Below, piece by piece: positions 38,733 through 51,657 of a DNA stretch of 64,000 nt. The translations under genes were made by a program, and so were the position numbers. The DNA comes from Paracoccaceae bacterium (GTDB taxonomy: Bacteria > Pseudomonadota > Alphaproteobacteria > Rhodobacterales > Rhodobacteraceae). Position 1 is the stretch's first letter. Each line of letters begins with the position of its first letter. The stretch is taken from assembly GCA_902534325.1 (NCBI GenBank), contig CACAPQ010000001.1, forward strand, positions 62,001 through 126,000, given 5' to 3'. The notes beneath the pieces were generated by a model. That model saw only the letters and a program-made list of their open reading frames with translations, made no database searches and was not told the origin of the DNA.

Positions 38733-39500
38733 TTAATCTTCATTGAATAGACTATCGGCAAGTTGGTTTGCTGCTTCCGTTAAGATGTCCTTACGAGCCA
38801 AAGCATTTTCTATTGATATTCTCTGTGTAGGTCCATGAAATGCAAGTGCAGCAGCAAATCGTCCACGATTGTCCTTAACGGGTACAGCAATTGCCACCAT
38901 ACCATCCATAAATTCCTCTTGATCTAAAGCATAACCTTGTTTTGAAACTTGCTTTAGTTCTGACAGTAAAGTTTCTTGTCTGACATGCGTTCTTTTGGTA
39001 TGTGCTTTCAAATCCATTACCTCTATCATAGCCTTTCTTTTCTTTGGAGCTAGACTGGCTAAAAAGCATTTGCCGCTGGCAGTACAATGAAATGGTACGT
39101 TGGTCCCTATCGGAAGTTGGATTCTGAAAGCCCAGTCGGTTTCAACGCGGTCAATGTAGTTCATTCCAGAAGCTTCGGGTATCACGAAGTTAACTGTCTC
39201 TTTTACTTTATTTGAAATATTTAACAGAATCTGGCGACGTGCGATATGATCACGAGAGTTATATAATAAACCTATACCCAAGTCTCTTAATCGTCGTGCT
39301 GCCTGATAACGTTTTGTATGGCCAACTCTTGTTAGAAAACCATTCTCTTCCAAGGTGCTACACAACCTATGCACCGTTTGTTTTGGTAATTGTAGAGTAT
39401 CGTTAATTTCAGTGGCTGTCATAGCTCGATTGTTTTTGCCTAATACCTCTAAAATAAGGAGTGTTCTTAAATTTGTCGGTATCCTTTCTATCTCCGTCAT
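38733..39500 (-). CDS. IclR-family transcriptional regulator (sulfonate locus)
   Basis: This 255-residue regulator has an N-terminal winged helix (AMTATEINDTLQLPKQTVHRLCSTLEENGFL) and the IclR effector domain (FRIQLPIGTNVPFHCTASGKCFLA, then GYALDQEEFMDGMVAIAVPV). It is divergent from the GMC oxidoreductase and the sulfonate catabolic genes, the usual place for a local regulator. I infer that it senses DHPS, isethionate or a pathway intermediate. The 104-base gap shows no clean palindrome that I can name as its operator. Confidence 0.87.
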   Translation of the reverse strand: MTEIERIPTNLRTLLILEVLGKNNRAMTATEINDTLQLPKQTVHRLCSTLEENGFLTRVGHTKRYQAARRLRDLGIGLLYNSRDHIARRQILLNISNKVKETVNFVIPEASGMNYIDRVETDWAFRIQLPIGTNVPFHCTASGKCFLASLAPKKRKAMIEVMDLKAHTKRTHVRQETLLSELKQVSKQGYALDQEEFMDGMVAIAVPVKDNRGRFAAALAFHGPTQRISIENALARKDILTEAANQLADSLFNED

Positions 39501-39604
39501 AACATTCCCTAAATAAAACTATTGCGTTCTCTTAAATTAGCTGTAACGTATTAATTTGCAATAATCGAGAAAAAAAGTCTCATTTTTTGATATCGGGTGA
39601 ATTA

Positions 39605-41200
39605 ATGGAGTTTGATTATGTTGTTGTGGGCGCTGGATCTGCTGGCTGTGCAGTTGCAAGCCGCCTATCGCAATGTGGAAACTATAACGTCGCTTTAATT
39701 GAGGCGGGCCCAGATGATAATAACCCGTGGATACATGTACCGGTTGGATATTTTCGTACAATGGGTAATCCAAAATCTGACTGGCGCTACGAAACGCAAC
39801 CAGACAAAGGAATTGCAGGTAGATCCATACCCTGGCCTAGGGGAAGGGTTATGGGTGGGTCTAGCTCTACTAACGGTCTTCTTTACGTTCGAGGTCAGCC
39901 GCAGGATTTTGACATCTGGTCCCAACTTGGTTGCAGAGGATGGTCTTGGGAGGAAGTTTTACCATTTTTTAAGCGTTCTGAAAATTGGGATGGAATTGAT
40001 GAAACTGGATTAAGGGGAAAAGACGGTCCTCTTTCGGTTCAATCGTCTCGATTGAAACGTGATATTGTGGACCGCTGGGTCGATGCTGCTGTTACAGCAG
40101 GTTATCAACGCAATTACGACTACAATGGCTTAACGCAAGAAGGGGTGGGCCATTTTCAATTGACTATGAAAGGTGGTCGCAGGTGTTCGTCGTCAGTTGC
40201 ATACATAACGCCTATTAAAAGTAGAAAAAATTTAAAAATTATTACAAACGCCCAATCAAAAAAAGTTAATATTGTTGATGGAAAAGCAACATCTATCGAC
40301 ATAATCATAAAAGATAAGTTGGATACGATTACAGCAAGAAAAGAAATTATTATTTGTGCTGGTGCAATAGGCTCTCCGCAACTTCTTATGCTTTCTGGAA
40401 TTGGCCCTGGAGAAGATCTGAGAAATCTGGGAATAGAGGTTGTTAGTGATTTGGTAGGCGTTGGTAAAAACTTACAAGATCACCTCCAAGCTCGACCTGT
40501 CTTTAAGACCGATTTATCTACAATAAATACGGAAACGAGTAATTACGTTAAAATGGCTTTAATGGGCCTGCAATATATCTTAACTCAACGTGGTCCCATG
40601 ACTATGGCAGCAAGCTTGGGAACAGGTTTTCTTAAAACTGAAGATCACTTGGAAACTCCAGATATTCAATTTCATATTCAGCCATTCAGTGCAGACATGC
40701 CTTCAAAAGGTACACACACTTTTTCGGCATTCACTGCATCTGTCCTTCAGTTAAGGCCAGAAAGCACAGGGTATTTAAAGTTGAAGTCTCCAAACTATTT
40801 GGACCATCCTGAAATCCATCCAAATTATTTAGCCACAGTTACGGACTGTAAAACTATTGTAAAGGGCGTTCAGATTGCTCGTAAAATTGCGCAGTACGAG
40901 CCATTGAAGAGCCATGTCTCAGAGGAGTATGCTCCAGGCTCGGAAGTGCCTTTGGCAGATGAAGAAGGAACGTTGGACTGGGTTCGAAGGACTGCTGTTA
41001 CGATCTACCATCCAACGGGTACATGTAAAATGGGAACCGATGAAATGTCTGTGGTTTCGCCAACATTGAAAGTACGAGGTGTTGAAGGTCTGCGAGTTGC
41101 TGATGCCTCAATCATGCCTAAAATTACGAGCGGCAATACAAATGCTCCAGCCATAATGATTGGTGAAAAAGCAAGTGATTTAATTTTGAAGGAGGCTTAA
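39605..41200 (+). CDS. GMC-family oxidoreductase (choline/isethionate-dehydrogenase-like)
   Basis: This FAD flavoprotein of 531 residues has the dinucleotide-binding VVVGAGSAGCAVASRL, the GMC signature region PRGRVMGGSSSTNGLLYVRG and the active-site block YHPTGTCKMG. Enzymes of this family oxidise alcohols with membrane electron acceptors, and isethionate dehydrogenase IseJ is one. It is the first gene of the sulfonate locus, 104 bases from the IclR gene and 119 bases before the TRAP genes. It could oxidise DHPS, isethionate or another sulfonated alcohol. No xsc gene for sulfoacetaldehyde is in the window. The ATG at 39605 is preferred over the in-frame ATG at 39587. Confidence 0.85.
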   Translation: MEFDYVVVGAGSAGCAVASRLSQCGNYNVALIEAGPDDNNPWIHVPVGYFRTMGNPKSDWRYETQPDKGIAGRSIPWPRGRVMGGSSSTNGLLYVRGQPQDFDIWSQLGCRGWSWEEVLPFFKRSENWDGIDETGLRGKDGPLSVQSSRLKRDIVDRWVDAAVTAGYQRNYDYNGLTQEGVGHFQLTMKGGRRCSSSVAYITPIKSRKNLKIITNAQSKKVNIVDGKATSIDIIIKDKLDTITARKEIIICAGAIGSPQLLMLSGIGPGEDLRNLGIEVVSDLVGVGKNLQDHLQARPVFKTDLSTINTETSNYVKMALMGLQYILTQRGPMTMAASLGTGFLKTEDHLETPDIQFHIQPFSADMPSKGTHTFSAFTASVLQLRPESTGYLKLKSPNYLDHPEIHPNYLATVTDCKTIVKGVQIARKIAQYEPLKSHVSEEYAPGSEVPLADEEGTLDWVRRTAVTIYHPTGTCKMGTDEMSVVSPTLKVRGVEGLRVADASIMPKITSGNTNAPAIMIGEKASDLILKEA

Positions 41201-41319
41201 CAGCTGATGTCTTAATTAGAATAAGGGTGCAAGAAGCATCTTTAAATAAAGGTCAAGAAAAGTCTCCGGCTTGGCTGTTATCTTCAAACTAGGAGGCGTT
41301 GAACTATGGGAGGAGATTC

Positions 41320-42414
41320 ATGTTCAATTTTAAAATTTTAACCGCAGGGGCTACATCCCTTGCTCTCTTGGCTTCGACAGCAATGTCTGAAACCGTCATT
41401 CGTATTCAATCTGTTCTTGGAAATTCGACAGATGAGGTGCGAATGGTTGAGGCGTTTGCAGCAGATGTTTTGGAGCTGACTGGTGGTTCGGTAAAAATCG
41501 AAATTCTACCAGCTGGCGCGGTGGTTGGACCACGTGATATCATGGATGCTGTTGATGCTGGTCTTGTTGAGGCTGGTTTTGCTTGGACACACTATTGGGG
41601 TGGTAAGCACCCTGCAGCTAACCTTTTTGGTGCACCAATTGCAGGTGCTGGCGTTGGTCTAGACGCAATGGCATTTTTATCTTGGTTTCAGTACGGTGGT
41701 GGTAAAGAACTTTATGACCGTCTCTGGGATGAGATGGGTGTTAACGTAAAAGGTTTTATGCTGCAGCCAGTTGGCCCAGAAGCTTTGGGTTGGTTTCCAG
41801 AAAAAATCGAGTCTATGGATGATTTCCGTAAGCTACGTTTCCGCGCACCTCCTGGTATGGTTGGCGCTGCCTACAATGAGATTGGTGTTGCAGCTGTTGC
41901 TATGGGTGGTGGCGATATTTTGCCAGCGCTGGAAAAAGGTGCAATTGATGCTGCTGAGTGGTGCTGCCCTAAGCCAGACTCTGTTTTTGGTTTTCAGAAA
42001 GTGCTGAAGCATTACTACTTACAAGGCTTACACCAAGTTGTCGTGAACGCTGACCTTTACATAAATGGAGATGTTTATGACAGCCTTTCAGCGACTGAAA
42101 AGAAAGCTCTGGAAGTTGCCGCAAATGCTTCTCTGTCTAAGTCAATGTCTTATCGTATTTACGAAAATGGAAAATCACTGAAAGACTTGACAGAAAATCA
42201 TGGTGTCATCTTAGAAGATACTCCTGCTGATTACTTTACAGAGTATATGGCCGCAGCCAAAAAGCTTCTTGAAGAAGCAGCAGCAGATAATGAATTCTTT
42301 GCTGAGGTGTGGCAGTCACAAAAAGATTTTGCTGATATAGCTGTTCCTTTTTGGGCTGGTGCTCAAGCATCGAATGCTGGTCTAGGTAAAGCACACGCAG
42401 ATACTTTAAAGTAA
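41320..42414 (+). CDS. TRAP transporter substrate-binding protein (DctP family)
   Basis: This periplasmic binding protein has 364 residues including a Sec signal (LTAGATSLALLASTAMSE). It shows the DctP pattern: VLGNSTDEVRMVEAFAADVLELTGGSVKIEI, then ALGWFPEKIESMDDFRKLRFRAPPG with the conserved substrate-binding Arg. GALDAAEW-like GAIDAAEWCCPKP follows. The ATG at 41320 has a strong AGGAG. The location next to DHPS genes predicts a sulfonate ligand, as for HpsKLM-type importers. Two inverted repeats follow before the permease gene, probably setting the binding protein above the permease in expression. Confidence 0.9.
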   Translation: MFNFKILTAGATSLALLASTAMSETVIRIQSVLGNSTDEVRMVEAFAADVLELTGGSVKIEILPAGAVVGPRDIMDAVDAGLVEAGFAWTHYWGGKHPAANLFGAPIAGAGVGLDAMAFLSWFQYGGGKELYDRLWDEMGVNVKGFMLQPVGPEALGWFPEKIESMDDFRKLRFRAPPGMVGAAYNEIGVAAVAMGGGDILPALEKGAIDAAEWCCPKPDSVFGFQKVLKHYYLQGLHQVVVNADLYINGDVYDSLSATEKKALEVAANASLSKSMSYRIYENGKSLKDLTENHGVILEDTPADYFTEYMAAAKKLLEEAAADNEFFAEVWQSQKDFADIAVPFWAGAQASNAGLGKAHADTLK

Positions 42415-42427
42415 ATTTATAAACCTT

Positions 42428-42451
42428 TCGTGGAGCTTGTTGGCTCCACGA
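42428..42451 (+). promoter_or_regulatory. stem-loop after the TRAP binding-protein gene
   Basis: A perfect nine-base inverted repeat, TCGTGGAGC (42428-42436) and GCTCCACGA (42443-42451), has a six-base loop and begins 14 bases after the dctP stop. Only a short ATTTT follows, so it is more likely an mRNA-stabilising or partial-termination hairpin than a strong terminator. Confidence 0.65.
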
Positions 42452-42500
42452 ATTTTCTCAATTAATAAGGTGCTGCAAGCTCTTTTTTAATTGAGAAAAT
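42452..42500 (+). repeat. 14-base perfect inverted repeat in the dctP-dctQM gap
   Basis: ATTTTCTCAATTAA (42452-42465) and TTAATTGAGAAAAT (42487-42500) are exact inverted copies around a 21-base spacer that itself ends in a T-run. It abuts the preceding hairpin. Together they fill most of the gap, suggesting transcript processing or attenuation between the binding protein and permease. Confidence 0.7.
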
Positions 42501-42543
42501 CTTCCTCAAGAGTGGGAAGAATATCTAAAGGGGAGATCAGAAC

Positions 42544-45006
42544 ATGGCGGATGAACAGGTTCCTGATGATTTGGAAATCGCAGATGAACTGATTGCTGAG
42601 CGTCGAACAGAAAGACCAGGAGAAACACCAGCTGACATGACGTCATGGCAACGGCCAATTACTGGTTATATCGACCTTTTGAACGATTTTGCTGGTAGGG
42701 CGCTGTGTCTTTTAATGGTTCCTCTGATCGGTGTCGTTGTTTTTGAAGTCATTTCTAGAAATGCTTTCGGAATTATGGCTAGTTATGATTGGGATGATAC
42801 AGCCCGTGCATTAGGTCTAGGTCCCACCTTATTTGCTTACGATATTAGCCGAATGATTGCTGGAGTTTTATTTATGGGTGCAGCCGGTTACGGCTTGATG
42901 CGAGGTGTCCATATTCGCGCTGATTTTCTCTATCGCAATTGGAGTGATAAAACCCAAGCGACAGTTGACGCTATTCTTTATATGGTTTTTTTCATACCAT
43001 CTATGTTGTTTTTCACCATTATTGCAGCACAGTATTGGGAGCTTGCTTACCGAACCGGCGAAACCGCGTTTGATAGTCCTTGGGAGCCCTTATTATGGCC
43101 AGCTAGATTGGCTATGCCAGTTGGTGGTTTGCTGCTTATGCTTCAGGGTTTTCCAGAGCTATTCAGAGCATTTCATAAAATGGGCGAGGAGCGGGAACGA
43201 TATTTTGTAATGGCTCTTCCATTCTACTTTATTGCTCTTTTTTGGCTAGTTATGGCTGTTTTTCTGCCGGATATGACACCTGGTGGAGAGGCCTTCACCG
43301 ATCTTATGTCATCACGGCCTGGACTTTCTAAGCCAACGATTGGTTTAATTATGCTCGCGGCAATGCTTTTTGTAATTTTTATTGGTTTCCCAATATCATT
43401 TACGCTTATTTTCCTCGCCTTTGTTTTTGGAATTTGGGGATCGAATTTCAAATTAACAACATTGCTTATGACTTTGAATACGAATTCGACAATGTTGAAC
43501 GATCAATTGATGGCAGTACCATTATTTATACTTATGGGCATTGTCATGGAAGCAGCAGGTCTTATGGAGCGTCTCTTCTCATCAATTCAGATGATTATGG
43601 CGCGTGTTCGGGGTTCTCTTTATATTGCTGTTTTGATTGTTTCTACGATATTTGCTGCGGCAACAGGAATTGTCGGTGCCTCTGTTACGCTATTGGGTAT
43701 CATGGCCGGTACGACTATGACGCGTTCAGGTTACAATGTTAAATTGGCAGCTGGAACGATAACGGCCGGCGGTACTTTGGGTATCCTTATACCTCCATCA
43801 ATAATGTTAATTGTTATGGGCCCAGTTCTCGAAGTATCAACATTAGATTTGTTTCGTGGTGCATTTATCCCTGGAGCTTTGCTAGCATCACTTTATTTAA
43901 TTTATACTTTGGGGAGATGTTGGCTTAATCCAGAGCTAGGTCCAGTGCTGTCAGAAGAAGATCAGCCAAAAACATCTGACTACTATGGCGCTGAAATTGC
44001 ATTAATTTCTCTGGGTGTCCTTACAATCTGCCGTGTTTTTGGTTTAGGTATAGGCGGAACTTTTGCCAGCATTATTCCTTTCAGTGGGTTGATAGTACTA
44101 GTCGTAACAATATTGATTGCATTTCGGGCATACCGAAAACTAAATATTCTTCGCTTAACGCTTCCATTGGCTCTTTTGTTCCATCTGTACTGTCTGATCA
44201 CAACATGGGGTGACAATGTCCCTTGGGTTTCTCTAGTTCTATTTCTGTTTGCCACTTTTCTTGGTGCCTTAAGTTTGGCTATTTACAGAAAAGATGCTGC
44301 TGAAAGGTTTGAGTTCTCAGAACTATGGGATGAGTTTTTCGCAGGTTTAATGCCCCCGACAATTTTGATTTCATTTGCTTTGGGTTCAATACTCTTAGGT
44401 TTTGCTACTCCAGCAGAAGCCGCAGCTATGGGTGCCTTTGGGGCAATTCTTCTATCGTTAGGATATGGAAAATTCACAATTCCTGGTTTCTTCGATAATC
44501 TAGTCAAATCTCTTGAGATAACAGTATTAATCATGTTTCTTGTGGCAGCATCAAATTTCTTCGGTGCTGAGTTCTCATCTCTGGGCACACCCAAGATGAT
44601 GACAGAGATGATGCTTCAATTGGATGTATCTCCTTACTTGATTTTAATTATGGTTATGGCGCTGATATTTCTACTTGGCTGGCCGCTGGAATGGGTTCCT
44701 ATTGTATTGATTGTTGTTCCAATCCTTTTGCCTACCGTAGCTGCTTTGGATATCCATGGATTAAATCCCTATGATCTAATGGTTTGGTTTGGCATTTTAG
44801 TGGCTGTAAACCTTCAAACAGCTTGGTTGTCTCCACCGGTGGCTTTATCTGCATACTTTTTGAAAGGTGTTGTGCCAAACTGGGACCTGAAAGACATTTA
44901 TTTTGGAATGATGCAATTTATGCTTATCCAACTCGTAGGTTTGATACTGATTTTTATCTTCCCACAAATTGTACTCTGGTTACCAAACCAAGTTTTTGGG
45001 CAATAA
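42544..45006 (+). CDS. TRAP transporter fused permease (DctQ-DctM)
   Basis: This 820-residue membrane protein fuses the small and large TRAP permeases. After a 55-residue hydrophilic N-terminus come about four DctQ-type helices (residues 55-240) and then the large DctM part with conserved MAVPLFILMGIVMEAAGLMERL, GIVGASVTLLGIMAG, GTLGILIPPSIMLIVMGP and ATPAEAAAMGAFGA. It imports the ligand of the adjacent DctP protein with sodium symport, as in other TRAP systems. The ATG at 42544 is preceded by GGGGAGATCAGAAC. It is followed after four bases by the DUF475 gene. Confidence 0.9.
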   Translation: MADEQVPDDLEIADELIAERRTERPGETPADMTSWQRPITGYIDLLNDFAGRALCLLMVPLIGVVVFEVISRNAFGIMASYDWDDTARALGLGPTLFAYDISRMIAGVLFMGAAGYGLMRGVHIRADFLYRNWSDKTQATVDAILYMVFFIPSMLFFTIIAAQYWELAYRTGETAFDSPWEPLLWPARLAMPVGGLLLMLQGFPELFRAFHKMGEERERYFVMALPFYFIALFWLVMAVFLPDMTPGGEAFTDLMSSRPGLSKPTIGLIMLAAMLFVIFIGFPISFTLIFLAFVFGIWGSNFKLTTLLMTLNTNSTMLNDQLMAVPLFILMGIVMEAAGLMERLFSSIQMIMARVRGSLYIAVLIVSTIFAAATGIVGASVTLLGIMAGTTMTRSGYNVKLAAGTITAGGTLGILIPPSIMLIVMGPVLEVSTLDLFRGAFIPGALLASLYLIYTLGRCWLNPELGPVLSEEDQPKTSDYYGAEIALISLGVLTICRVFGLGIGGTFASIIPFSGLIVLVVTILIAFRAYRKLNILRLTLPLALLFHLYCLITTWGDNVPWVSLVLFLFATFLGALSLAIYRKDAAERFEFSELWDEFFAGLMPPTILISFALGSILLGFATPAEAAAMGAFGAILLSLGYGKFTIPGFFDNLVKSLEITVLIMFLVAASNFFGAEFSSLGTPKMMTEMMLQLDVSPYLILIMVMALIFLLGWPLEWVPIVLIVVPILLPTVAALDIHGLNPYDLMVWFGILVAVNLQTAWLSPPVALSAYFLKGVVPNWDLKDIYFGMMQFMLIQLVGLILIFIFPQIVLWLPNQVFGQ

Positions 45007-45010
45007 ACTT

Positions 45011-46063
45011 ATGTTACCCAAAAGATCAGTAGTTTCCTATCTTAAGTGGCCACTAGTAGTCACATTTGTTGGTTTAGTTTTGTCAGCTTGGTTGGGCTGG
45101 GAGACGGAAAAAACACTAAGTGCAGTTTTTTCATTTTTGCTAGTCGGAACAGTGTTGGCCGCACTCGAGATTGCTCTATCTTTTGATAATGCAATAGTGA
45201 ATGCCAACAAGTTGGTTGAGATGACTCCTGTTTGGAGGCAGAGGTTCTTAACTTGGGGAATACTCATAGCCGTCTTTGGGATGCGTATAGTTTTTCCTGT
45301 TGCGATTGTCGCGACTTTCGCCTGGATAAATCCTTTTGCAGCAATTCATTTGGCGCTTTCAGATCCAGACGAGTACTCTCACATTATTCACCAATCACAT
45401 AGTTCTATCGCAGCTTTTGGGGGAACCTTTTTAATAATGGTTTCGCTTAAGTTTTTTATAGATGAGGATAAATCAATTGATTGGATTGTTGGTTTAGAAA
45501 AAAACTTAAGAAAGTGGGGGTCAATACGCGGCTTCGAAATTGCTGTTGTCCTATTTATTATTTCATTCATGTCGCAGGTGGTTACTGAAAGCCAGCAGGC
45601 ATCATTTCTTCTTTCTGCTATTTCTGGTTTGTTGGTCTTTACTCTTGTAGATGGACTAGGAAGTTTTCTTGATGACTATTCAAATAGTGCAACAAATTTG
45701 GGTGCTCGAGGTGGTCTAGGAGCATTTTTATACTTAGAAGTACTTGACGCTAGTTTCTCATTTGATGGTGTAATTGGGGCTTTTGCATTAACAACAAATA
45801 TTATTTTAATAGCCATAGGTCTTGGAATTGGCGCGATGTACGTTCGCGCGATGACTATTATGTTGGTTGAAAAAGGAACACTACAGCAGTTTCGATATCT
45901 TGAGCATGGTGCTTTTTATTCAATTTTCGCTCTTTCCATAATTATGTTTGCCCAATCTATCATTGAAGTTCCTGAAACTATCACTGGAGCTATTGGAGCA
46001 ATAATAATCGGATTATCTCTGTATTCATCCGTTCGCTATAACAATAAAGAGCAGTCGCTCTAA
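45011..46063 (+). CDS. DUF475 integral membrane protein (TerC-like), in the sulfonate operon
   Basis: This 350-residue protein has about nine hydrophobic segments. It carries two acidic membrane motifs of the DUF475/TerC type: LEIALSFDNAIVNANKLV and the partner LEVLDASFSFDGVIGAFAL. TerC relatives export metal ions such as Mn(II); DUF475 itself is uncharacterised. The ATG at 45011 lies four bases after the permease stop, and hpsN follows after 15 bases, so it is embedded in the sulfonate operon. Because no TauE/SafE-type sulfite exporter is present, export of sulfite or another product is an attractive but untested idea. A metal-homeostasis role is the alternative. Confidence 0.8.
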   Translation: MLPKRSVVSYLKWPLVVTFVGLVLSAWLGWETEKTLSAVFSFLLVGTVLAALEIALSFDNAIVNANKLVEMTPVWRQRFLTWGILIAVFGMRIVFPVAIVATFAWINPFAAIHLALSDPDEYSHIIHQSHSSIAAFGGTFLIMVSLKFFIDEDKSIDWIVGLEKNLRKWGSIRGFEIAVVLFIISFMSQVVTESQQASFLLSAISGLLVFTLVDGLGSFLDDYSNSATNLGARGGLGAFLYLEVLDASFSFDGVIGAFALTTNIILIAIGLGIGAMYVRAMTIMLVEKGTLQQFRYLEHGAFYSIFALSIIMFAQSIIEVPETITGAIGAIIIGLSLYSSVRYNNKEQSL

Positions 46064-46078
46064 ACAGGAGACACAAAT

Positions 46079-47386
46079 ATGTCACGAAGATACCTGAAGA
46101 AGGCACAACTTACACCAAAATCTAATGCCTCAGAGGTTCATGAAACGGTAAAAAATATTCTTACAGATATAGAAGCTGGAGGTGATGAAAAGGCTGAAGA
46201 GTATGCCTCAAAATTTGACCAGTACCAAGGGAATATAATTTTAACAGACGAAGAAATAGAGGCGGCAAGTGACTTAGTTCCAGCTAAGCTAAAAAAAGAT
46301 ATAGAGTTTGCGCACGATAATGTGAGACGATTTGCGGAAAAGCAGAAAGAAACATTAAAGAACACTGAAATTGAAATTCATCCTGGGTTTGTAACTGGTC
46401 AAAAGGTTATTCCAGTTGATGCAGCTGGGTGTTATGTTCCTGGTGGTCGCTATAGTCATATTGCTAGTGCCATTATGACAGTGACAACTGCAAAAGTTGC
46501 AGGGTGTAAGTTCATAACTGCTTGTTCACCACCTAAGCCAAATGTTGGTGTTGCTCCGGCGATTATTTATGCTGCTCATATCTGTGGCGCAGACAAAATA
46601 ATGGCCATGGGGGGCGTTCAGGGAGTTGCTTCAATGACATACGGTTTATTTGGGTTGCCACAGGCAAATATTTTAGTTGGACCTGGTAATCAGTTTGTAG
46701 CTGAGGCAAAACGTATTCTGTTTGGCCGAGTTGGAATAGATATGATAGCAGGTCCGACTGATAGTTTGATTTTGGCAGATGAAACTGCTGATCCATTTAT
46801 TGTAGCTACAGATTTAGTATCGCAAGCAGAACATGGCTATAACTCACCTGTATGGTTGGTTACGGATAACGAAACTTTAGCGAATAATGTTATGAATTTG
46901 GTTCCAAAGTTGATTGATGACTTGCCTGAGACTAACCGAGAAAATGCAACTGCGGCCTGGCGAGATTATGCGGAGGTAATTGTTTGCGAGAACAGGGAAG
47001 AAATGGCTGCTTGTTCTGATGAATATGCGCCTGAACACCTTACAGTTCAGGCTGATGATCTTGATTGGTGGCTTGAACGTCTGACCTGTTACGGCTCATT
47101 ATTTTTGGGTGAGGAAACAACTGTTTCTTATGGTGACAAAGCCGCGGGAACCAACCATGTTTTGCCCACTTCAAGAGCCGCTAATTATACTGGTGGTTTG
47201 AGCGTCCACAAATATATGAAGATAGTGACATATCAAAGAGCAACAAGAGAGGGGTCAAAATCAATTGCTGAAGCCACGGCTCGGATCTCTCGATTGGAGG
47301 GAATGGAAGGTCATGCAAGGGCTGCAGACGTTCGCTTGGCTAAATTTTTTCCTAATGAGGAGTTTGATTTAACAGCTAATGGATAA
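46079..47386 (+). CDS. hpsN: sulfopropanediol (DHPS) 3-dehydrogenase HpsN
   Basis: HpsN oxidises (R)-2,3-dihydroxypropane-1-sulfonate at C3 in two NAD-linked steps to (R)-3-sulfolactate. The 435-residue protein belongs to the histidinol-dehydrogenase family. It keeps the zinc ligands in SQAEHG (Gln, His), GDKAAGTNH (Asp) and EGMEGH (His). It carries the HpsN-type AAGCYVPGGRYSHIASAIM stretch in place of the HisD form. The context (TRAP importer before; SDR, zinc ADH and SuyAB after) fits DHPS breakdown and not histidine synthesis. The start has CAGGAG upstream. The SDR gene overlaps its end by eight bases. Confidence 0.88.
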   Translation: MSRRYLKKAQLTPKSNASEVHETVKNILTDIEAGGDEKAEEYASKFDQYQGNIILTDEEIEAASDLVPAKLKKDIEFAHDNVRRFAEKQKETLKNTEIEIHPGFVTGQKVIPVDAAGCYVPGGRYSHIASAIMTVTTAKVAGCKFITACSPPKPNVGVAPAIIYAAHICGADKIMAMGGVQGVASMTYGLFGLPQANILVGPGNQFVAEAKRILFGRVGIDMIAGPTDSLILADETADPFIVATDLVSQAEHGYNSPVWLVTDNETLANNVMNLVPKLIDDLPETNRENATAAWRDYAEVIVCENREEMAACSDEYAPEHLTVQADDLDWWLERLTCYGSLFLGEETTVSYGDKAAGTNHVLPTSRAANYTGGLSVHKYMKIVTYQRATREGSKSIAEATARISRLEGMEGHARAADVRLAKFFPNEEFDLTANG

Positions 47387-48140
47387 ATCCACGTCTTTAT
47401 TTAATTTAACTGGAAAGGTGGCTGTTGTTACAGGCGCAAGTTCTGGGCTTGGTCGTCGTTCAGCCGAGGTACTTGCTGTCGCTGGAGCTAAAGTTGTTGG
47501 TGTGGCTAGGCGAACAGAGGTATTGGAAAGTTTAGCTTTGGAATTGGGACAAAATTTTTCTTATATTTCTGCTGATATTTCTGATCGCGGGCGATTGGCG
47601 GACTTGTGTTTAGAATTAAACAGCAAGTTTGGTCCGCCAGATATTCTAGTTCATGCGGCTGGAGTTAATACTCGGCAAACAGCTGATGAAGTAACCGATC
47701 TTGGATGGGATCAAACGATTTCATTAAATCTCTCGACGCCATTTTTTTTATCCCAGCTCCTTGTTCCTGAAATGAAAAAGAAAGGCTGGGGAAGAATTGT
47801 AAATTTTGCATCAGTACAAACCACTAGGGCATTTCCTGGTGGTATAGCATATGGTGCTTCAAAAGGTGCTATTGGACAGCTGACAAGAGCAATGGCTGAA
47901 GCCTGGTCGTCCCACGGCATTTGTGTGAATGCCATTGGTCCGGGCTTTTTTCCTACAGAATTAACTCAAATAGTTTTTGAAGATGCAGAGCGGTCCAAAA
48001 GAAATGCTGGTCAGACCTGTATTGGTAGAAATGGGGAGATGGAAGATTTAGATGGACCTTTGCTTTTTCTTTGTTCCGAGGCTTCCAGGTATGTTACGGG
48101 TCAAGTTCTAATGGTCGATGGAGGGTTCACAGCAAAATGA
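47379..48140 (+). CDS. short-chain dehydrogenase, HpsO/HpsP-type DHPS 2-dehydrogenase candidate
   Basis: This classical SDR of 253 residues has the cofactor loop TGASSGLGRRSAEV, a VGVARR segment after the second strand suggesting a basic NADP-type pocket, the catalytic Ser in NFASVQTT and YGASKGA. In known DHPS pathways two alcohol dehydrogenases invert the C2 configuration of S-DHPS through the ketone. This gene and the following zinc ADH fit that pair. Which corresponds to HpsO and which to HpsP I cannot assign safely. It overlaps hpsN by eight bases and the next gene by four. Confidence 0.82.
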   Translation: MDKSTSLFNLTGKVAVVTGASSGLGRRSAEVLAVAGAKVVGVARRTEVLESLALELGQNFSYISADISDRGRLADLCLELNSKFGPPDILVHAAGVNTRQTADEVTDLGWDQTISLNLSTPFFLSQLLVPEMKKKGWGRIVNFASVQTTRAFPGGIAYGASKGAIGQLTRAMAEAWSSHGICVNAIGPGFFPTELTQIVFEDAERSKRNAGQTCIGRNGEMEDLDGPLLFLCSEASRYVTGQVLMVDGGFTAK

Positions 48141-49117
48141 GGGCGCTTGTTTATGTCGGAGAGGAACAATTAGATTTTCGCGAAGTCATGGATCCTATTG
48201 TAAATTCTGATGAGCAGTTAATAAAAGTTGATAGCGCCGGTATATGCGGCTCTGATATGCATGCTTTCCTTGGCCATGATGAACGTCGACCGGCTCCTTT
48301 GATATTAGGTCATGAAGCATCCGGTATAATTTTGGGTGGCGATCGTGATGGTGAAAGAGTTACGATTAATCCGCTTGTAACCTGTAAGAATTGCCAAGCA
48401 TGCAAGGCTGGACGTGAAAATATATGTCCAAACCGCCAAATCATTTCAATGGCTCCACGTGAAGGCACTTTTGCTGAAATGGTATCAGTTCCCGAAACAA
48501 ATTTAGTAAAGGTTCCTTCTCACGTTTCCTTAGATAAAGCGGCTTTAACAGAACCGTTAGCTGTCAGTTGGCACGCTGCTAGATTGGCTCTAGAGGCTCT
48601 ACATCCGAGTATGGATAGAAACGTATTGATTGTAGGAGGAGGTGCGATTGGCTTGGCATCCGCTTTAGCATTCAAAGCGATGGAAATTGAAAACATTATA
48701 ATAGTGGAACCAAATTCTATTCGTAGAAAATATCTTAATGATCAATGTAACGTAATTGCATTTGAAAAAGTTGATCAATTTTTTTCGATTGTAGTAGATG
48801 CAGTGGGCTTTAGACAAACTCGTGAACTTGCATCTGCTAAAGTATCTCCTGGCGGAGTCATTACACATATAGGATTAGGTGAAGATACTGGTGGAATTGA
48901 TGTAAGGCGAATAACCCTGCAAGAAATTAACTTCATTGGAACTTACACGTATACAGCAGGAGATTTTAAAAATACTGCTCAAGCGATTTTTGATGGTCGT
49001 TTAGGTCCTTTAGATTGGATTGAAAGAAGACCACTATCAGAAGGAAATAGAGCTTTTAGAGAGATTAGAGAGGGTAAAATTGCCTCTCCAAAAATTTTAC
49101 TAAGCCCAAATGATTAA
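48137..49117 (+). CDS. zinc-dependent alcohol dehydrogenase, HpsO/HpsP-type candidate
   Basis: This medium-chain dehydrogenase of 326 residues has the catalytic zinc region GICGSDMHAFLG and LGHEASG, the structural zinc cysteines in TCKNCQACKAGRENICPN, and the nucleotide fold VLIVGGGAIGLASALA. The ATG at 48137 overlaps the SDR stop (ATGA). With the SDR it would interconvert the two DHPS enantiomers so that HpsN receives R-DHPS. SuyA follows after 17 bases. Function is inferred from context; sorbitol- or threonine-dehydrogenase-like enzymes share this fold. Confidence 0.82.
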   Translation: MRALVYVGEEQLDFREVMDPIVNSDEQLIKVDSAGICGSDMHAFLGHDERRPAPLILGHEASGIILGGDRDGERVTINPLVTCKNCQACKAGRENICPNRQIISMAPREGTFAEMVSVPETNLVKVPSHVSLDKAALTEPLAVSWHAARLALEALHPSMDRNVLIVGGGAIGLASALAFKAMEIENIIIVEPNSIRRKYLNDQCNVIAFEKVDQFFSIVVDAVGFRQTRELASAKVSPGGVITHIGLGEDTGGIDVRRITLQEINFIGTYTYTAGDFKNTAQAIFDGRLGPLDWIERRPLSEGNRAFREIREGKIASPKILLSPND

Positions 49118-49134
49118 TAAAATAGGAGAAAAAT

Positions 49135-49425
49135 ATGTCGAATATACCGCATCTTTTAGTACACGATCATGAAGATAATGTCGGTGTTGTTGTGGTTGAG
49201 GGCTTAACGGCCGGAACTGAAATGTTTTGCTGCGTTACGCACGATAATTCAACTTTTACGCTTACTGCGGGTGCAGATGTGCCGATTGGGCACAAGATAG
49301 CCCTTAAAGATTTAAAGGACGGTGATACTGCAGTTAAATATGGGGAAGATATTGGTAAAATAATAGCTGATATCCCTAAAGGCGGACATGTTCATACACA
49401 CAATTGCAAAACCAAACGCTGGTAA
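49135..49425 (+). CDS. suyA: (2R)-sulfolactate sulfo-lyase alpha subunit SuyA
   Basis: This small 96-residue SAF-domain subunit is equivalent to the N-terminal part of altronate dehydratase (UxaA-like). It contains [33 protein letters not shown] and the terminal GGHVHTHN motif typical of the split small subunits. With SuyB it removes sulfite from (R)-3-sulfolactate to leave pyruvate. An AGGAG site precedes the ATG. The separate SuyB gene starts ten bases later, so the enzyme is split as in known SuyAB. Altronate or other hydroxyacid dehydratase is the alternative reading. Confidence 0.85.
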
Positions 49426-49435
49426 GGAAAGAAAA

Positions 49436-50617
49436 ATGGCATCAAAATATTCAAATATAACAGTTAAGGGTTTTCGTAGAGAAAACGGGCGTGTTGGCGT
49501 TAGGAACCATGTTTTAATACTCCCAGTCGATGACATTTCGAATGCGGCATGTGAAGCTGTAGCCAATAATGTAAAAGGTACTATGGCAATTCCTCATGCA
49601 TACGGTCGGCTGCAATTTGGGGAAGATTTGGAAGTACATTTTCGCACAATGATTGGTACTGGCAGCAATGCGAATGTTCATTCAGTTGTTGTAATTGGAA
49701 TTGAACCTGATTGGACAAAACGAATTGCTGATGGAATTCGTGAGACTGGTAAAGAAGTTGCGGAATTCTCAATTGAGCAAAAAGGTGATTTTGAGACTAT
49801 AAGGGCGGCTAGCTGGGCTGCAAAAGACTTCGTTCATAAAGCGACTGAGGTACAACGAGAGGAATGTTCTATTTCAGAACTTTGGGTTTCAACGAAATGT
49901 GGTGAGAGTGACACGACAACTGGTCTGGGTTCATGTCCCACAGTTGGCAACATGTATGACAAACTTTTACCAGAAGGAATTACAGGGTTTTTTGGGGAAA
50001 CATCAGAAATAACTGGTGCCGAGCATATTTGTCAAAAGCGCGCTATCAATGAGGAAGTCGGTGAGCGTTGGTATAAGATGTGGAAGGCTTACCAAGATGA
50101 TGTTATTTTTGCCCATCAAACTGATGATCTTTCTGACAGTCAGCCGACCAAGGGTAACATACTTGGTGGGTTAACTACGATTGAAGAAAAAGCTTTGGGT
50201 AATTTAGAAAAAATTGGCAGAACATCTCAATACATAGATATTTTAGATCCTGCAGAACAACCCAACTCAGGAAAAGGTTTGTATTTTATGGATAGCTCAT
50301 CAGCAGCTGCAGAATGTGTGACCCTAATGGCAGCAGGCGGAGCTGTCATACATACATTTCCAACAGGGCAGGGCAACGTAGTAGGGAACCCCATTGTACC
50401 TGTGATCAAAATAACAGCTAATCCAAGAACTGTCAGAACCATGGGCGAACATATTGATGTTGATGTATCTGGAATTCTTCGGCGAGATCAAACAATCGAC
50501 GAAGCAGGAGATGCTCTCATAGATATGATCCGAAGAACAGCAAATGGCAGAAACACTGCGGCAGAAGCACTTGGTCACCGTGAATTTTCTATGACAAAGC
50601 TATATAGAAGTGCTTAG
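49436..50617 (+). CDS. suyB: (2R)-sulfolactate sulfo-lyase beta subunit SuyB
   Basis: This 393-residue protein corresponds to the large UxaA/GarD-type domain. It begins [24 protein letters not shown] and contains [31 protein letters not shown] with conserved cysteines, [14 protein letters not shown] and [20 protein letters not shown]. As SuyAB it cleaves the C-S bond of sulfolactate, releasing sulfite. The ATG at 49436 follows AAGGA; an open frame from 49388 overlaps suyA and is not needed. A stem-loop follows the gene. Confidence 0.87.
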
Positions 50618-50631
50618 ATGAGTTAAATTTG

Positions 50632-50650
50632 GTGGCTGCTTTGCAGCCAC
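50632..50650 (+). promoter_or_regulatory. stem-loop between suyB and the comC-like gene
   Basis: A perfect eight-base stem, GTGGCTGC (50632-50639) and GCAGCCAC (50643-50650), closes a TTT loop. It lies 14 bases after the suyB stop, is not followed by a T-run and precedes AATTAATAAG, a string also found after the dctP hairpin. An RNA-stability or processing element is likely. Confidence 0.6.
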
Positions 50651-50670
50651 TAATTAATAAGAGGTTTCAA

Positions 50671-51657
50671 ATGTCTTTAGAGACCAGAGTATCTATTGCT
50701 GAAGCTGAACAATTAGTAAAAGAAGCTTTTCTTAGAAACGGTGTAACAGAAGCCGTTGCCATGTCAGTTTCAACCGCGCTGGTTGCCGCTGAGGCTGAAG
50801 GGCAAATTGGCCATGGGTTTTCGCGAGTGAAAGATTATATTGCTCAAGTTAAATCAAAAAAAATCAATTCAAATGCTAAAATTAAAATAGAACATCTTAA
50901 GCCAACATCTATATCGGTAGATGCGGATTATGGCTTTGCCTACCCTGCTCTTGATCAGGCTATTTCTGAGGGTGCTTTAGTCGCAAAAGAATATGGGAGT
51001 GCCGTAGTATCTGTTTTCAGTTCGCATCACTGTGGGGCTCTTTCTGTACAAGTTGAAAAAATAGCAAACCATGGTCTAATTGGTTTGATGATGGCAAATA
51101 CGCCCAAAGCAATTGCCCCTTGGGGCGGTAAAGATCCATTTTTTGGTACCAATCCAATAGCTTTTGCAGTTCCACGAATAGAAAAAGATCCGTTAGTTAT
51201 AGACTTATCTTTATCAAAGGTTGCACGTGGGAAAATAATGCATGCGAAAAAGGTAAATACCACAATACCAGAGGGGTGGGCGTTGGATAGTTCAGGAAAA
51301 CCAACGACTGATCCTGATCAAGCTTTAAAAGGGTCAATGTTGCCTATTGGTGAAGCTAAAGGAAGTGCATTAGCCCTTATGGTTGAAATTTTAGCTGCTA
51401 CATTTTCTGGTGGCAGGCCGAGTAACGAAGCTAGTTCATTTCTCGACCCTGATGGTGATCCGCCGGGTGTTGGCCAGTTTCTAATGTTCATAGACCCAGG
51501 AAAAGATAACGGCTCCTTTTATAATCGTTTAGAAAAATTGCTGGTCAATATTGAGAAGACAGATGGAGTTCGTTTGCCGGGTAATAGAAGAAAAAATGAT
51601 ATCCAAAAATCAAAGGATCTTGGGCTACTGCTTCCAGCAGATTTTATTGATCATTAG
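50671..51657 (+). CDS. comC: Ldh2/ComC-family (sulfo)lactate dehydrogenase
   Basis: This 329-residue NAD(P)-dependent 2-hydroxyacid dehydrogenase is of the malate/L-lactate (Ldh2) family. It contains GHGFSRVKDYI, SSHHCGALSVQVEKIA, the APWGGKDPFFGTNPIAFAVPR block and GSMLPIGEAKGSALALMVEIL. ComC in sulfolactate-degrading bacteria is a member and oxidises (R)-sulfolactate to sulfopyruvate. The position at the end of the hps/suy genes supports that role. No SlcC-type partner is present. The ATG at 50671 has GAGG upstream. Its stop overlaps the convergent ABC permease gene by four bases. Confidence 0.78.
   Translation: MSLETRVSIAEAEQLVKEAFLRNGVTEAVAMSVSTALVAAEAEGQIGHGFSRVKDYIAQVKSKKINSNAKIKIEHLKPTSISVDADYGFAYPALDQAISEGALVAKEYGSAVVSVFSSHHCGALSVQVEKIANHGLIGLMMANTPKAIAPWGGKDPFFGTNPIAFAVPRIEKDPLVIDLSLSKVARGKIMHAKKVNTTIPEGWALDSSGKPTTDPDQALKGSMLPIGEAKGSALALMVEILAATFSGGRPSNEASSFLDPDGDPPGVGQFLMFIDPGKDNGSFYNRLEKLLVNIEKTDGVRLPGNRRKNDIQKSKDLGLLLPADFIDH

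Follow-up and report, generated by a model that had tools for sequence, protein, structure and literature searches.

The DNA studied here, called the window, is a stretch of 64,000 nucleotides of contig CACAPQ010000001.1 (positions 62,001 to 126,000) from a Paracoccaceae bacterium (assembly GCA_902534325.1). In this window a gene encoding a membrane protein of the DUF475 family is located between the gene of a TRAP permease and hpsN, and the question arose of what such a protein does in a sulfonate operon. A preliminary description, made from the sequence alone, had offered two answers: export of the sulfite released by SuyAB, or handling of a metal needed by HpsN or the zinc-type alcohol dehydrogenase.

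Organisation of the operon

The genes considered are found at positions 38733 to 51657 of the window:

38733–39500, minus strand: IclR-family regulator, IseR-like by position, divergent from the operon (IclR_C 124 bits, HTH_IclR 46 bits)
39587–41200, plus strand: GMC flavin dehydrogenase, a putative IseJ judged by its position (profile matches)
41299–42414, plus strand: DctP, TRAP solute-binding protein, putatively of the TakP type, with a cation-site signature (profile and alignment)
42544–45006, plus strand: fused DctQM TRAP permease (DctM and DctQ both over cut-off)
45011–46063, plus strand: DUF475 / TerC-superfamily membrane protein, the subject of this study (ATG start, 350 amino acids; Pfam and motifs)
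46079–47386, plus strand: HpsN, (R)-DHPS 3-dehydrogenase (best solved relative 8wwe)
47379–48140, plus strand: SDR in the HpsO position (profile matches; order N-O-P as in PMC4334477)
48137–49117, plus strand: zinc-type alcohol dehydrogenase in the HpsP position (profile matches)
49135–49425, plus strand: SuyA-like small subunit, named by position and the split gene pair (TIGR03248 39 bits, below cut-off)
49388–50617 (listed ORF), plus strand: SuyB-like large subunit, named by position (GD_AH_C and GD_AH_second over cut-off)
50671–51657, plus strand: Ldh2-family dehydrogenase, sulfolactate dehydrogenase-like (NF040650 207 bits, cut-off of 500 not reached)

The ORF coordinates bear out the tight spacing that had been described: four bases separate the end of the TRAP permease gene (45006) from the DUF475 gene and 15 bases separate the latter from the start of hpsN (46079). 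We take IseR to be of the IclR class, and the leader of DctP is presumably of the Sec type, as judged by eye. The ORF of DctP as listed begins at TTG, an ATG being present at 41320, and the probable start of the SuyB-like ORF is the ATG at 49436. Compared with solved proteins, HpsN reached 726 bits with 8wwe, annotated as '(R)-DHPS dehydrogenase', and 254 bits with the best histidinol dehydrogenase; by sequence comparison its identity is confirmed, since it is closer to the (R)-DHPS dehydrogenase than to histidinol dehydrogenase. In the window an isethionate-like TRAP system heads hpsNOP and suyAB-like genes, and hpsKLM are absent from the operon.

Two clusters of Ruegeria pomeroyi serve as references. 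The DHPS cluster is described as hpsR (LacI) - hpsKLM - hpsNOPQ - slcD and the isethionate cluster iseRJKLM (SPO2355-2359) as encoding a regulator, a flavin dehydrogenase, a TRAP binding protein and permeases (PMC4334477); IseJ is described as a membrane-bound flavin dehydrogenase (PMC6453916). HpsN is real, but judged by content the TRAP and GMC genes look like the isethionate cluster and not like hpsKLM under hpsR, and the GMC protein may be IseJ. The module formed by these genes also stands without hpsN.

Affiliation of the DUF475 protein

The protein matched Pfam DUF475 (PF04332) with 347 bits (cut-off 27, E 1e-103) over positions 1-292 of the 293 of the model and, in two stretches, Pfam TerC (PF03741) with 66.8 bits (cut-off 27.8). 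On these profile matches it is a member of the TerC superfamily. The paired acidic membrane motifs that had been compared to those of TerC are real: E53, D59-N60 and E243, D246, D252 are invariant in 59 of 59 aligned DUF475 sequences including that of the window, all from alphaproteobacteria, and proteins of the module and other DUF475 proteins are alike in them. The matches to the YjbE subfamily (TIGR03717, 23.9 bits, cut-off 134.8) and the YkoY subfamily (TIGR03716, 42.5 bits, cut-off 138.5) were far below the cut-offs, and TauE/SafE (PF01925) was absent among the Pfam matches at E ≤ 0.001. A scan of the window with Rfam at gathering scores gave one tRNA only and no yybP-ykoY Mn riboswitch. 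A solved homologue was not found by sequence at E ≤ 1, and with the AF2 model (pLDDT 81.3) Foldseek gave no match under E 0.001. The VIA fold list had APC- and Nramp-like transporters on top with Z of ~6–8 (best Z 8.1), which is common for helical models.

DUF475 as part of a TRAP module

The surroundings of DUF475 genes were compared across 394 sampled genomes of the bacterium's family. DUF475 was over the cut-off in 99 of them and 100 regions around these genes were compared. The DUF475 clade of the window was present in 20 of the 394 genomes, each time in the same module with the order IclR, GMC, DctP, fused DctQM and DUF475, mostly followed by hpsN; the 20 comprise 20 regions from 19 genomes, in one of which the gene is split over two contigs, plus the window's own genome. 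In the remaining 80 regions no comparable genes were present, the best matches being 40% for DctQM and 41% for GMC. At one locus (L235) DUF475 is in two fragments in an otherwise normal module, by decay or assembly error.

The clade comprised 48 unique loci. DctQM was located directly upstream of DUF475 in 43 of the 46 loci with enough upstream sequence, the exceptions being L052, L069 and L080, and since this is so the association goes beyond chance. In all module loci with DctQM directly upstream the gap between the two genes is 0 to 17 bases. Downstream, hpsN was present in 38 of 45 loci with enough sequence and missing in L057, L069, L080, L084, L091, L103 and L156. SuyA was found in 10 of the 48 loci; several others have, as seen by eye, sulfopyruvate decarboxylase-like genes instead. 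The association of DUF475 with the module is real, and the recurrence next to sulfonate genes that the preliminary description had proposed to survey holds in 20 of 394 genomes; viewed from hpsN it is weaker, with DUF475 within 4 kb at 15 of 120 hpsN places (at least 73% identity). Nineteen of the 20 module genomes are in the list of 120 places; in the twentieth, G439, a contig end truncates hpsN. Clusters without DUF475 are thus common (105 of 120 hpsN places have none nearby).

From such places, 35 stretches were chosen for the absence of DUF475, which show only that such clusters exist, the rate being the 15 of 120. Twenty of the 35 are of the hpsKLM type, and in the others the stretch contains hpsN but not these TRAP genes. 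In two genomes the hpsKLM type and the DUF475 module co-occur (L265 with L176, L269 with L161), indicating that the module is not just another form of the DHPS cluster.

Replacement of DUF475 by a YjbE-type TerC protein

A search of the 394 genomes with DctQM found 43 genomes. Apart from one locus cut by a contig end (L312) and five distant ones that were left out, these gave 37 modules, of which 20 had DUF475, 15 a YjbE-type TerC protein (L298-L300, L302-L311, L313 and L315) and two neither (L301, L314); none of the 37, the module of the window's genome included, had both. The mutual exclusion was counted on the 394-genome sample only and gave a Fisher value of 1.5e-8 with kinship ignored; a set of 58 DUF475 modules, which had been fetched by DUF475 and included duplicates, was not used.

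The YjbE-type protein has ~222 amino acids and is encoded between GMC and DctP, upstream of the latter. All five proteins tested were over the cut-off of TIGR03717, 'YjbE family putative metal transport protein' (190–199 bits, cut-off 134.8), and the motifs S-G-D-N and S-x-D-N were invariant in 8 of 8 aligned sequences. With DUF475 the protein shares by BLAST only a short stretch (E 3e-5). In these sequences the swap thus puts a distantly related protein of the TerC superfamily in the place of DUF475. It occurred repeatedly: on a DctQM tree made by a quick method from 57 rows, without L312 and the five distant genomes and with long rows unsure, the state changed between DUF475 and YjbE type seven times on the best tree and at least five times by starred branches. 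The TerC-type gene is retained where hpsN is missing and also where GMC is missing, as in L304 (1074-6458), a module of IclR, YjbE-TerC, DctP and DctQM in which YjbE-TerC stands between IclR and DctP. The swap is the strongest hint to function, in that the module would need what DUF475 and the YjbE-type TerC protein have in common, and a metal-handling protein of the TerC type seems to be required by it.

DUF475 outside of the module

At two loci, L069 (10001-11029) and L080 (10001-11038), natural deletions between conserved flanks have removed the module and hpsN. IclR, GMC, TRAP and HpsN are lost and an intact DUF475 gene is left at the same chromosomal site, in L080 together with an HpsP-like alcohol dehydrogenase. 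In these two genomes, which may be incomplete, the best hpsN matches were 48% and 46% and no DctQM was found at E ≤ 1e-60. Both DUF475 genes fall inside the module clade of the DUF475 tree, and their retention suggests a use without DctP. L052 has lost IclR, DctP and DctQM and has retained GMC, DUF475 and hpsN.

Besides the window, the DUF475 tree was built from 91 loci out of 163 unique ones, namely L069, L080, 24 of 46 module loci, 34 unlabelled loci and all 31 others with a label; counts under its 'DPP' label are upper limits, as that label includes further ABC ATPases. Closest to the module clade on the tree are two Octadecabacter genes, which are also located behind a TRAP permease, and the other DUF475 clade had no common conserved neighbour. 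Outside the module clade, 11 of 113 DUF475 genes stand directly behind an importer gene compared with 22 of 909 control genes, a count from which kin were not removed and which includes two pairs of near-copies. Some follow peptide-type ABC importers, and relatives occur in operons with genes of the ManD or mandelate-racemase type, RraA, altronate dehydratase or 2-hydroxyacid dehydrogenase.

In phage and plasmid records, 14 of which were picked by hand among 75 matches listed, DUF475 stands among TerD, TelA or VWA genes in six, from several phyla (Rhizobium and Caulobacter phages; Lactococcus, Mycobacteroides, Deinococcus and Rhodococcus plasmids). The Rhizobium and Caulobacter phages (L284, L285) are large and carry TelA-VWA-DUF475-TerD clusters, and a Ralstonia phage is described with DUF475 between 'general stress protein 16U' and a VWA gene (PMC8504454). 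In the other eight of the 14 records ter genes were absent beside DUF475; three of these have a 2-hydroxyacid dehydrogenase or RraA gene next to it, and on a ter-less Streptomyces plasmid DUF475 follows a metal P-type ATPase. In the window's own genome, which is 78% complete, the DUF475 gene is the only TerC-family gene found, and a general metal role may therefore be part of the picture.

Sulfite export as a possible function

The observation that no TauE gene lies within the window is correct. The genome has six TauE genes, all on contigs other than that of the window (C1), namely C6, C9, C14, C28 (two) and C36. The pair on C28 (L244, 22347-23865) consists of two tandem TauE-family matches near an ABC importer. 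On C14, where Xsc scored 901 bits (cut-off 676) and Pta was over its cut-off, the TauE gene stands between pta and a molybdopterin oxidoreductase gene, next to xsc. A TauE-type exporter elsewhere in the genome that is induced with the locus had been named as something that would refute the earlier proposal; of this, the six genes bear out one half, the existence.

Export by DUF475 of the sulfite that SuyAB or Xsc release is very improbable. It would agree with the suyAB-like genes in the same operon of the window and with the hpsN place listed for 19 of the 20 module genomes, the twentieth having a cut one; but xsc, pta, TauE and the molybdopterin oxidoreductase gene adjoin in the same genome, which has five more TauE genes, 105 of the 120 hpsN places have no DUF475 nearby, the YjbE-type protein replaces DUF475 in sister modules, and its acidic motifs also speak against such a role. 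Because TauE stands beside xsc and relatives of DUF475 occur in non-sulfonate operons, such as those of the sugar-acid type, and in ter clusters, sulfite export was rejected as the main reading.

Probable metal handling and the solute-binding protein DctP

TerC proteins are described as Mn exporters and as metallochaperones for exported proteins (PMC10550928, PMC12096827). This literature, the ter genes next to relatives of DUF475 and the metal P-type ATPase on the Streptomyces plasmid make metal handling the default reading, and as a predicted function it is probable. Of the earlier proposals the metal branch has gained ground by the affiliation to the TerC superfamily and by the YjbE-type TerC protein that takes the place of DUF475 in sister modules. 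Its proposed recipients have not: supply of metal to the cytosolic HpsN or the zinc-type alcohol dehydrogenase, and likewise to SuyAB, was rejected, because the TerC-type gene tracks the TRAP module whether these genes follow or not.

DctP is the one exported soluble protein of the module and its best solved relative is TakP, which is reported to bind its ligand via a cation held by Q156, E214, W215 and E240 (PMC1839085). In an alignment with TakP, Y100, R177, E214 and W215 are kept in DctP, Q156 is replaced by E and E240 by Q; all six positions are identical in 60 of 60 DctP sequences. For HpsK, the DHPS binding protein, a pattern search of 20 sequences, two of them also aligned, found the E-W motif in none, and no YjbE-TerC was found in HpsK loci. 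The twin arginines of HpsK we take, judged by eye, to be a Tat signal.

In the reading that we prefer, with a probability of about one half, DUF475 serves an isethionate-like TRAP uptake module as its TerC-type component. By way of its paired acidic membrane motifs it would expel a divalent metal (Mn2+, or Ca2+) from the cytoplasm and deliver it on the periplasmic side to wherever the module requires it; the candidate client that we favour is the module's own exported DctP with its putative TakP-like cation site. The sequences themselves show the family, the motifs, the membership in the module and the mutually exclusive swap; the ion, the direction of transport and the client are what we infer here. 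DctP as client, proposed because it keeps the TakP-like positions named above while HpsK lacks both the E-W motif and a YjbE-TerC partner, is a tentative choice. Metal loading can also be given a more specific form, which we hold to be rather unlikely: TRAP uptake would depend on a dedicated metallochaperone, in that a TerC-superfamily protein of either the DUF475 or the YjbE type would load a divalent metal into DctP at the exit of the Sec translocon to yield a metal-dependent sulfonate receptor, and HpsK, being without the site and seemingly exported by Tat, would need none. Several observations count against DctP as client. The cation of TakP is taken to be sodium (PMC1839085), and for TRAP systems the cations are described as mostly non-specific (PMC5812351); loading of DctP may therefore be unnecessary. 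Furthermore, the two modules without a TerC-type gene (L301, L314) have a DctP with the same site, and in Octadecabacter (L088) DUF475 stands behind another TRAP system whose DctP lacks the motif. The DUF475 genes behind peptide-type ABC importers, and those retained in L069 and L080 after loss of the module, likewise count against the preferred reading.

Alternative explanations

A metal-exporting protein may also do without a client. If the importer brought in metal bound to a hydroxylated anionic substrate, the TerC-type protein could pump out the excess, which would explain why DUF475 stands in operons of hydroxy or sugar acid importers such as L088 (TRAP with a mandelate-racemase-type enzyme) and beside peptide-type ABC importers with 2-hydroxyacid dehydrogenase or RraA. 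The 11 of 113 DUF475 genes directly behind an importer, against 22 of 909 controls with kin not removed, fit this, as does the description of TerC proteins as Mn exporters (PMC13274385). The DHPS TRAP loci compared have no such partner, however, and the window has no Mn riboswitch. In addition, isethionate and DHPS are poor metal ligands, and we consider this relief of a metal load unlikely.

Export of an organic anion, for instance of sulfolactate or a sugar acid that accumulates as an intermediate and overflows, would be in line with the repeated presence of DUF475 in catabolic operons with dehydrogenases and with the amino-acid exporters that are described in the LysE superfamily (PMC4608589). 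It has little probability in view of the acidic motifs, which are identical in module and other DUF475 proteins of the alphaproteobacterial alignment, and of the swap partner being a YjbE-type TerC protein. Just as doubtful is a mere passenger, a generally useful metal exporter that landed in the operon and was kept as harmless: the gene outlives the module in L069 and L080, and no other TerC-family gene was found in the window's genome, but 35 of the 37 modules have one TerC-type gene and never two, with at least five swaps, and the short gap to DctQM is kept in all module loci where the two adjoin.

The DUF475 family and the function of TerC proteins are already known. A title-and-text search of open-licence papers listed none on the function of DUF475 and none with DUF475 in the title; a paper on silver nanoparticles (PMC13306010) names it in the abstract. 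Among the papers listed there was no link of DUF475 or TerC with a TRAP module, and as far as this literature goes it is new that a TerC-type protein forms a constant but exchangeable component of a TRAP sulfonate module. Phytoplankton and Roseobacters exchange carbon and sulfur in the currency of isethionate and DHPS. If a metal exporter of its own is required for the uptake of these sulfonates, the supply of trace metals and the turnover of sulfonates would be coupled at one operon, DUF475 would gain a testable role, and research on TerC would gain a natural pair of protein and client from outside the Firmicutes.

Comparison with known systems

With iseRJKLM the module shares the regulator, the flavin dehydrogenase and the TRAP genes, and Xsc is also encoded in the window's own genome. 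Unlike the fused DctQM of the window, the permease parts of iseRJKLM are separate, and its consecutive locus tags leave no room for a TerC gene. The DHPS cluster of R. pomeroyi has HpsN and the order N-O-P in common with the window but has a LacI-type regulator and another TRAP system, and DUF475 is not among the genes listed for it. The xsc-pta-TauE locus of the window's genome resembles in gene order the xsc-pta-soe region of R. pomeroyi (SPO3557-3561). TauE/SafE proteins are likewise membrane proteins expected near desulfonation genes; the DUF475 protein has no Pfam match to them and the TauE genes are located elsewhere in the genome.

TakP shares Y100, R177, E214 and W215 with the DctP of the window and differs at Q156 and E240 (E and Q in DctP). 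In ter clusters with TerD, TelA and VWA genes on phages and plasmids, DUF475 holds the slot of TerC, whereas no ter genes stand beside the DUF475 gene of the window. With the members of the TerC family (YjbE, YkoY = MeeY, YceF = MeeF and Alx of E. coli) DUF475 shares the superfamily and the paired motifs of the S-x-D-N type. It differs from them in having 350 amino acids and a Pfam family of its own, in the absence of a Mn riboswitch from the window, which is known for several TerC members although not for all, and in its location, an operon of TRAP and sulfonate genes with an IclR gene next to it.
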